Below the pieces are notes generated by a model that was not told the origin of the DNA, ran no database searches, and saw nothing but the letters and a program-made list of their open reading frames with translations. A program made the position numbers and the translations under genes. A stretch of 64,000 nucleotides of DNA from Bacteroidia bacterium (lineage in GTDB: Bacteria > Bacteroidota > Bacteroidia > B-17B0 > Aurantibacillaceae): the NCBI GenBank assembly GCA_026003255.1, contig BPGX01000002.1:1-64000 (forward strand), in the 5' to 3' direction. Shown here in pieces: positions 669 to 62,223 of the stretch; within the stretch, counting starts at the first letter, position 1; the number at the start of each line of letters is the position of its first letter.

Positions 669-683
669 GTGTGTTATTTAACT

Positions 684-1107
684 CAAATAATGTATTTAAT
701 GCTTCGTAAGTGCCTTGTTTTTCTTTGCTGATGCATTCTTGTTTGTTTTTTATTTTCACCAATTAAGTGCTTGGTAATAGCGAAGAAAAAGGGCGTCATT
801 GCGACCCTTCCATAAAATGGAAGTGAAAGCGATCTCGCAAAGGAAGGAGGAATAACTTTTGAGATTGCTTCAGGAACGATGTTCCTTCGCAATGACGGGC
901 ATTTTCATTTGAGATTGCTTTGGAAGCGATGCTTCCTCGCAATGACGGGCAACTTCATAAGGGATTGCTTCGTCGCTACGCTCCTCGCAATGACGCGTCG
1001 GGATTGCAATGACGGGCATGTTCACAGGAGATTGCTTCGGATGCTTTGCATCCTCGCAATGACGGGCTTATTCAAACGTTTTAGAAATGCCTAATGAATA
1101 ATTTAGG
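684..1107. repeat. MITE-like cluster of hairpin repeats (element A)
   Basis: No gene is supported here. The stretch holds four hairpin units of about 40 bp at 861-900, 911-950, 961-997 and 1028-1067, all built as ATTGC-stem-loop-stem-GCAATGACG. A collapsed unit lacking the inner hairpin lies at 1000-1017. A degenerate copy in the other orientation starts near 794 (CGTCATTGCGACC). The outer ends (near 684-705 and 1091-1107, CTAATGAATAATTTAGG) form imperfect inverted repeats and recur around 57.2-57.4 kb and 61.9-62.2 kb. I infer a non-autonomous mobile repeat of the REP/MITE type; no transposase is present in the window. Confidence 0.75.
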
Positions 1108-57160: not shown

Positions 57161-57170
57161 ATTTATCCCA

Positions 57171-57406
57171 GATAATGTATTTGATGCTTCGTAAGTGCTC
57201 TGTTTCATTCAATTGGTGCGGTTTTCGTTCATTTTTTACTTTTATGATTTGAGGAGTTGATAAGCATGAAGAAAAAGGGGTCGTTACAACTCTTTCATAT
57301 TATGGAAGGGTCGCAATGACGAGAGAAAAGTCCGTCATTGCTAGGATTCAACGTTTCCAAAGCAATTGCTTTTGAATAACCTTAATTTCTAATGCATAAT
57401 TTTAGG
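57171..57406. repeat. MITE-like repeat element B
   Basis: The left end (GATAATGTATTTGATGCTTC) matches the left end of element A near 687-705, and the right end (CTAATGCATAATTTTAGG, from 57389) matches its right end. Inside are degenerate parts of the GTCATTGCGA hairpins and a TTATGGAAGGGTCGC stem. It abuts the recG stop codon. Confidence 0.6.
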
Positions 57407-61850: not shown

Positions 61851-61887
61851 AATTTTGCTTAGTTTTTCTATATTACTCATTTTAACC

Positions 61888-62179
61888 CAAATTATTCATT
61901 AGGACTTTCTCAAACGGTCTGCTCTTCTTTGCTACCGCTGGTTTTAGGCAATGTTTATTTTCACCCTTCCAAAGGTGGAAGGGTAGTTGTAAGAATAAAA
62001 AATAAGCCCGTCATTGCGAAGGCGTGTAACGCCTGAAGCAATCTTAACTTGCATTCTCCCTTCTCTTTCGAGATTGCTTCGCTACGCTCGCAATGACGAA
62101 CACCACACCCGTCATTGCGAGGAGCACAGCGACGAAGCAATCCCCCTGTGAATACATATAATTTCTAATGAATAATTTG
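61888..62179. mobile_element. MITE-like element C with 15-bp perfect terminal inverted repeats
   Basis: 292 bp bounded by CAAATTATTCATTAG (61888-61902) and its exact complement CTAATGAATAATTTG (62165-62179). Inside are the ACCCTTCCA-AAGG-TGGAAGGGT hairpin and three GTCATTGCGA hairpin units (62008-62046, 62070-62101 and 62108-62146). It has no ORF. The same ends and units occur in elements A and B. I infer a non-autonomous transposable element. Confidence 0.7.
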
Positions 62180-62223
62180 AGATAATCTGGGATAATTTGG
62201 TTCAGAATAAACAATGAAAATTT

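Follow-up and report, generated by a model that had tools for sequence, protein, structure and literature searches.

The window analyzed here, a stretch of 64,000 nucleotides, covers contig 2, bases 1-64000, of a draft genome of 3.05 Mb that is 89.6% complete. Near its start, between an ORF ending at 668 and an ORF starting at 1126, lies an array of short hairpins enclosed in a complete MITE bounded by terminal inverted repeats (TIRs); ORFs of at least 80 aa are absent from this element, 682-1107 (Table 1). The span initially annotated as hairpin repeats, 684-1107, falls within 2 bases of the complete element, and the hairpins placed at 861-900, 911-950, and 1028-1067 are present with the inner stems ascribed to them. 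The element is flanked by TTTAA (677-681) and TTAAA (1108-1112), which are identical at 4/5 positions. Two further TIR-bounded copies are found in the window; the AGGCGT/ACGCCT inner stem reported for an "element C" was located at 62009-62043, and the third copy is probably that element.

Table 1. Features of the MITE copies and their hairpin units in the window.
Feature	Position	Strand	Remarks
Complete TIR-bounded MITE copy	682..1107		426 bp; contains hairpin array
Left terminal inverted repeat	682..698	+	CTCAAATAATGTATTTA, diverged copy of CCCAAATTATKCATTA
CGTC-REP unit	794..834	+	Long inner stem (CTTCCATAAAATGGAAG)
28-nt spacer	835..862		Of tags-outside (head-head) dimer 794-834 / 863-897
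CGTC-REP unit	863..897	-	Inner stem AGGAAC/GTTCCT
15-nt tandem linker	898..912
CGTC-REP unit	913..947	-	Inner stem GGAAGC/GCTTCC
15-nt tandem linker	948..962
CGTC-REP unit	963..995	-	GGAGC/GCGAC class, tandem G.A mismatches
Partial CGTC-REP end	1005..1014	-	CGTCATTGCA
CGTC-REP unit	1030..1064	-	Inner stem GGATGC/GCATCC
Right terminal inverted repeat	1091..1107	+	CTAATGAATAATTTAGG
Second TIR-bounded copy	57167..57405		Diverged; CGTC units near 57312-57367
Third TIR-bounded copy	61886..62181		CGTC units 62009-62043 (+), 62072-62098 (-), 62110-62142 (+)

Read on the strand that carries CGTC, a unit consists of CGTC, ATTGC, GA, an inner stem (usually 6 bp), a loop of 3-4 nt, the complementary stem, GAA, GCAAT, C, and usually TC. 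The loose motif GATTGCTT-N8-30-CGCAATGACG has 50 matches genome-wide and 0 in a reversed control. Perfect inner stems are of few types (GGATGC, GGAAGC, GGGAAC, AGGAAC, AGGCGT, and GGGCGT), and in shorter units the inner stem has 2 bp and the loop is GNA. In a 33-nt class, the inner stem contains two tandem G.A mismatches; these are retained in 12/13 copies of the class, among them the window unit at 963-995, which the initial annotation had passed over. When folded as DNA, four 35-nt window units give the expected hairpin of two helices (z about -2.8 to -3.8); the one 27-nt unit tested and the 33-nt unit at 963-995 fold no better than shuffled sequences under nearest-neighbor parameters. The retained G.A mismatches, together with the GNA loops of the short units, suggest a DNA-type hairpin feature that standard folding misses. 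An Rfam search with the hairpins returned no match.

The hairpins are CGTC-tagged REPs, palindromic repeats already known from bacteria that have Bacteroidetes among their listed hosts and were reported in 2013 as being without a dedicated transposase (Di Nocera et al., 2013; PMC3733652). In each, one end is an unpaired CGTC and the first two pairs of the stem are AT (CGTCATTGC...GCAAT), and most have a three-base unpaired tail after the palindrome, CTC or CCC following GCAAT, where CCA is the commonest tail of CGTC REPs (PMC3733652). The published stem is 8-9 bp with a loop of 4-5 nt (PMC3733652); here, a GA/GAA internal loop divides the 11 pairs of the stem into 5+6, and the inner loop is 3-4 nt. 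CGTC families are described as predominantly forming head-head dimers, with negligible tandem (HT) dimers (PMC3733652), but among neighboring unit pairs within 120 nt in this genome there are 18 HH, 19 HT, and 7 TT, so that head-head pairs do not predominate. The assignment is kept because dimer arrangement is an organizational trend rather than a defining structure. As expected for this kind of REP, no hairpin unit occurs in the examined flanks of the tyrosine transposase genes at five Y1 loci.

The flanks of the hairpins are also repeated (GAATAAGCC before CGTC; TCTTKTGAATA...AATTTCTAATGCATAATTTGGG after), and extending them leads to the terminal inverted repeats, CCCAAATTATKCATTA... The genome contains 53 TIR-bounded elements of 128-448 bp, of which 30 carry CGTC hairpins. 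Exact target duplications of 5 bp flank 22/53 elements, against 4.2 expected from mismatched pairs; duplications of 2-4 or 6-9 bp show no excess among the 53. Three elements are nested in the left end of a family-A MITE with exact duplications (C1:476092-476376, TTAAA; C7:52600-52873, ATGAA; C1:70851-71042, TTAAA), and joining their flanks restores an uninterrupted family-A left end. The hairpins are associated with these ends: 58/87 CGTC units are flanked on either side by a TIR no more than 450 nt away (1% in reversed DNA), and 69/87 have one on at least one side (16% in reversed DNA). The remaining 18/87 units have no TIR nearby, and some of them adjoin another GC-rich repeat. Another family of MITEs, about 265-316 bp long (for example C1:92004-92292, C1:381163-381447, C2:590298-590587, and C16:2435-2724), shares the TIR class, lacks CGTC hairpins, and often has exact 5-bp duplications; some of its members lie inside family-A ends.

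Within the arrays the spacing of units is nearly fixed, with tandem linkers of 15 nt in 15/19 junctions genome-wide, head-head (tags outside) spacers of 28-29 nt in 14/18 pairs, and tail-tail (tags inside) spacers of 11-13 nt in 7/7 pairs. The 15-nt tandem linker reads as a right hairpin flank fused to a left one through GAATAA, which suggests recombination between short GAATAA-like repeats. Hairpins have probably also been exchanged between MITE copies, because stem type does not track backbone similarity: among single-hairpin family-A MITEs, the nearest backbone shares the stem type in 3/13 cases (permutation p 0.87), a comparison of only 13 elements whose nearest neighbors are 58-85% identical. 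GAATAA, present on both sides, was examined as a possible target duplication of a hairpin insertion into the MITE; hairpin-less family-A copies keep a related palindrome or a hairpin remnant at that place, and thus no empty hairpin site is seen in family-A MITEs.

The initial annotation had drawn attention to inner stems that change in sequence while pairing is kept, and had let its proposal depend on a pairing bias in other genomic copies; covariation there is far above chance. Across 33 genome copies of 35 nt, 178/198 inner-stem cells are Watson-Crick pairs, a value reached in 0/5000 trials of shuffling the 3' arms (mean 130.8). In a 23-copy alignment, both-side changes occur in 5/6 inner pairs, and the covariation score is 0.294 compared with 0.141 when shuffled (0/500) and 0.00-0.09 in slid controls. 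The outer arms are 99% paired and nearly invariant, and the inner arms are 95% paired and variable.

Such covariation, which includes some G-T pairs, and the intergenic position of the window copy could indicate that each copy is selected in place for an RNA hairpin, such as a terminator or mRNA stabilizer, and has undergone true compensatory substitutions. Selection for pairing in each copy should, however, produce compensated changes at single sites. The inner stem is perfect in 22/33 of the 35-nt units, but the 11/33 imperfect stems carry mostly single uncompensated changes (for example GGATTC/GCATCC and GGAAGC/GATTCC). The G.A mismatches kept in one class, the empty result of the Rfam search, and the sharing of stem types by many copies at unrelated sites, with no site-by-site variation, also count against selection in place, which is unlikely. 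Because the decayed copies carry uncompensated mutations, the perfect stems, as judged from the copies of this one genome, look like founders that were copied and then decayed rather than stems repaired in place. Of the earlier alternative between selection and hairpin-dependent copying, the part that is supported is that copying rather than chance has acted on the hairpins, as covariation and uncompensated decay indicate; the enzyme named for it, a RAYT, is not supported.

In the RAYT/REPtron explanation, which has been proposed for GTAG REPs, a Y1 (HUH) transposase recognizes the single-stranded hairpin and copies it. The hairpins have features that would suit such an enzyme, being REP-like units with a tag and a stem-loop, arranged in head-head dimers whose near-constant 28-29-nt spacer resembles that of REPINs, and including short units with GC-GNA-GC mini-hairpins. 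Mini-hairpins of this kind are unusually stable as DNA. The search for a Y1/RAYT gene elsewhere in the genome, recommended in the initial annotation, did find one with the PF01797 profile, a single Y1/IS200-like gene at C8:20559-20903, but it is not linked to the CGTC hairpins. The IS200/IS605 model is the better fit to its product, at 69.7 bits (cut-off 55), and the REP-associated model gives 28.9 bits, below its cut-off of 80. No CGTC unit lies within 1.5 kb of this gene, and none was seen in the flanks examined of four Y1 genes of CGTC-rich relatives. The 3' flank of the gene instead contains different palindromes, of the AATCCCGAAGGGATT type (L031 1136-1390, C8), which may be its true partner repeat. 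Palindromes of this kind also form a tandem array at C5 near 34721 (L104).

Comparison of 60 genomes leads in the same direction. Y1 genes are present in 16/24 genomes with CGTC units and in 24/36 without, so that the two are unrelated, and three relatives with many units, G002 (51 units), G027 (59), and G045 (65), have no Y1 match. The organization of a REPtron is not found, as no Y1 gene is flanked by the repeat and the tag is CGTC, not GTAG; likewise, none of the CGTC REPs of Di Nocera et al. (2013) were found to flank a Y1 gene (PMC3733652). Gene context, co-occurrence, and Y1-free high-copy relatives thus all argue against single-stranded transposition by a RAYT-like enzyme. As the spreader of the CGTC hairpins here, a RAYT enzyme is probably wrong, and the explanation built on it is improbable.

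The ends of the enclosing element point to a different kind of enzyme. The TIR occurs in 16/60 relatives, mostly ones without CGTC units (Fisher p 0.015, a negative association), and in six of these (G051, G019, G024, G015, G011, and G048) its distance from the ends of PF13701/IS1380 transposase matches is about 100 bp or less. In G051 both TIRs bound a 1285-bp element with one in-frame stop, and the G019 protein scores above the NCBIfam IS1380 cut-off (186 compared with 180 bits). G024, G015, G011, and G048 have fragments of IS1380 transposases beside the TIR, those of G024 and G015 matching the NCBIfam IS1380 model below its cut-off. The presence of TIR and of IS1380 genes is positively associated (6/16 compared with 4/44, p 0.017). 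In the genome studied here no IS1380 transposase was found, and the stretches searched contain no autonomous insertion sequence with matching ends, as no TIR pair is wider than 448 bp. The only PF13701 match is an IS1634-family transposase gene, which is intact and encodes 504 aa (C22:10999-11586; L158 694-2208). Repeated IS copies are often missing from draft assemblies of this type. The absence of an IS1380 gene is weak counter-evidence because the assembly is incomplete and repeated copies are often lost. A 5-bp duplication is known for the IS1380-family element IS1247 (PMC3281130), and the element is classified as IS1380-derived because of the ends shared with IS1380 elements; its mobilization would take place in trans.

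The MITE explains amplification of the hairpins in this genome, not everywhere, because the context of the units differs in G002, G027, G039, and G045. In G002, which is of the same genus, CGTC dimers lie in a different, long GC-rich mosaic repeat (GGGCGTGCCCCTC ... CCGCATCCCTCACGC; loci L171-L190), and no Y1 or PF13701 gene was detected. In G027, G039, and G045, 4/42 sampled CGTC flanks recur, and other genomes have CGTC dimers with unique flanks and without such a MITE. A scan of a genome collection for the junction of MITE and hairpin retrieved three unrelated bacteria that have CGTC units but no TIR. Since 18/87 units in this genome have no TIR and dimers free of the MITE occur elsewhere, the MITE cannot be the general mobilizer of CGTC REPs.

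CGTC REPs might instead move by a Y1-independent system of their own and have colonized the MITE by chance, the MITE then multiplying them secondarily. High-copy families with mostly unique flanks and neither Y1 nor IS1380-type TIR, such as those of G045 and G027, the quite different mosaic repeat that holds the units of G002, and the identical outer arms in unrelated bacteria make this a real possibility, although not the favored one; against it, neither an empty hairpin site in family-A MITEs nor a candidate enzyme was found. It complements the IS1380-MITE explanation and does not exclude it. A more tentative proposal is that CGTC REPs have at least two Y1-free routes: as payload of an IS1380-type MITE here and, in relatives with 59-65 units that have mostly unique flanks and no Y1, through a putative enzyme that would need the CGTC-ATTGC-GA / GAA-GCAAT frame and tolerate many self-complementary inner stems.

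The likely explanation for the array at 682-1107, favored with good confidence, is that it is the interior of a non-autonomous MITE with IS1380-type TIRs, which would be moved whole by a DDE transposase and whose hairpins would be reshuffled by recombination. A DDE transposase of the IS1380 family would act on the TIRs in trans and paste the whole element with its hairpins into AT-rich 5-bp targets. Tandem copies with the 15-nt linker would arise when the GAATAA-like repeats flanking a hairpin recombine, and inner-stem types would be swapped by exchange through the invariant outer arms. Apparent compensation would then largely reflect how a few perfect founders (GGATGC, GGAAGC, GGGAAC/AGGAAC, and GGGCGT/AGGCGT) spread and were shuffled, and these would afterwards decay without compensation. 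The TIRs, target duplications, nested empty sites, IS1380-adjacent ends in relatives, covariation, and fixed spacings are observed, and which transposase acts, how recombination proceeds, and how new founder stems arise are inferred. Copying can be demonstrated for the enclosing element, in the form of DDE-type transposition that leaves 5-bp target duplications; against the explanation stands the window copy itself, whose target duplication is imperfect.

This genome provides a concrete case of hairpin amplification free of RAYTs, with the hairpins as passengers of a DDE-type MITE. It also calls for caution, as covariation among dispersed hairpins can stem from copied founders rather than from compensatory evolution in place. 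The Y1-free high-copy relatives make the hunt for a general CGTC-REP mobilizer a definable comparison. CGTC REPs carried by an IS1380-type MITE are a combination not found in the literature examined.

The units resemble the CGTC-tagged REPs of Di Nocera et al. (2013; PMC3733652), which include RPE-4/RPE-6 of Rickettsia and dRS3 of Neisseria, in the unpaired CGTC tag, AT-first stem, and short loop, as well as in complementary stem changes between sub-families, inverted head-head dimers, and the lack of a linked tyrosine transposase. They differ from these in the two-part stem with its GA/GAA internal loop and variable inner stem, in forming tandem arrays whose linker is 15 nt, and in that most copies are inside a TIR-bounded MITE. 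Palindromic repeats in inverted pairs are shared with the RAYT-REPIN system of GTAG REPs, as far as the available text of its description goes (Bertels and Rainey, 2011; PMC3116915), but the tag here is not GTAG and no RAYT gene is linked. Like IS1380-family insertion sequences (e.g., IS1247, PMC3281130) and their MITEs, the element has TIRs that match those of IS1380-gene elements in relatives and makes a 5-bp duplication; unlike the insertion sequences, it has no transposase gene, carries a REP array as payload, and has no autonomous partner found in the genome. MITECca01 of Cardinium, likewise from a Bacteroidota genome, is an IS-derived MITE that measures about 240 bp, but its source is an IS982-family element, and the available text of its description does not mention REP hairpins (PMC9769881). 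BrickBuilt of Porphyromonas gingivalis (PMC4596501) is another Bacteroidota MITE with an internal tandem repeat array, in which the payload is a 23-nt minisatellite rather than tagged hairpins with variable stems.
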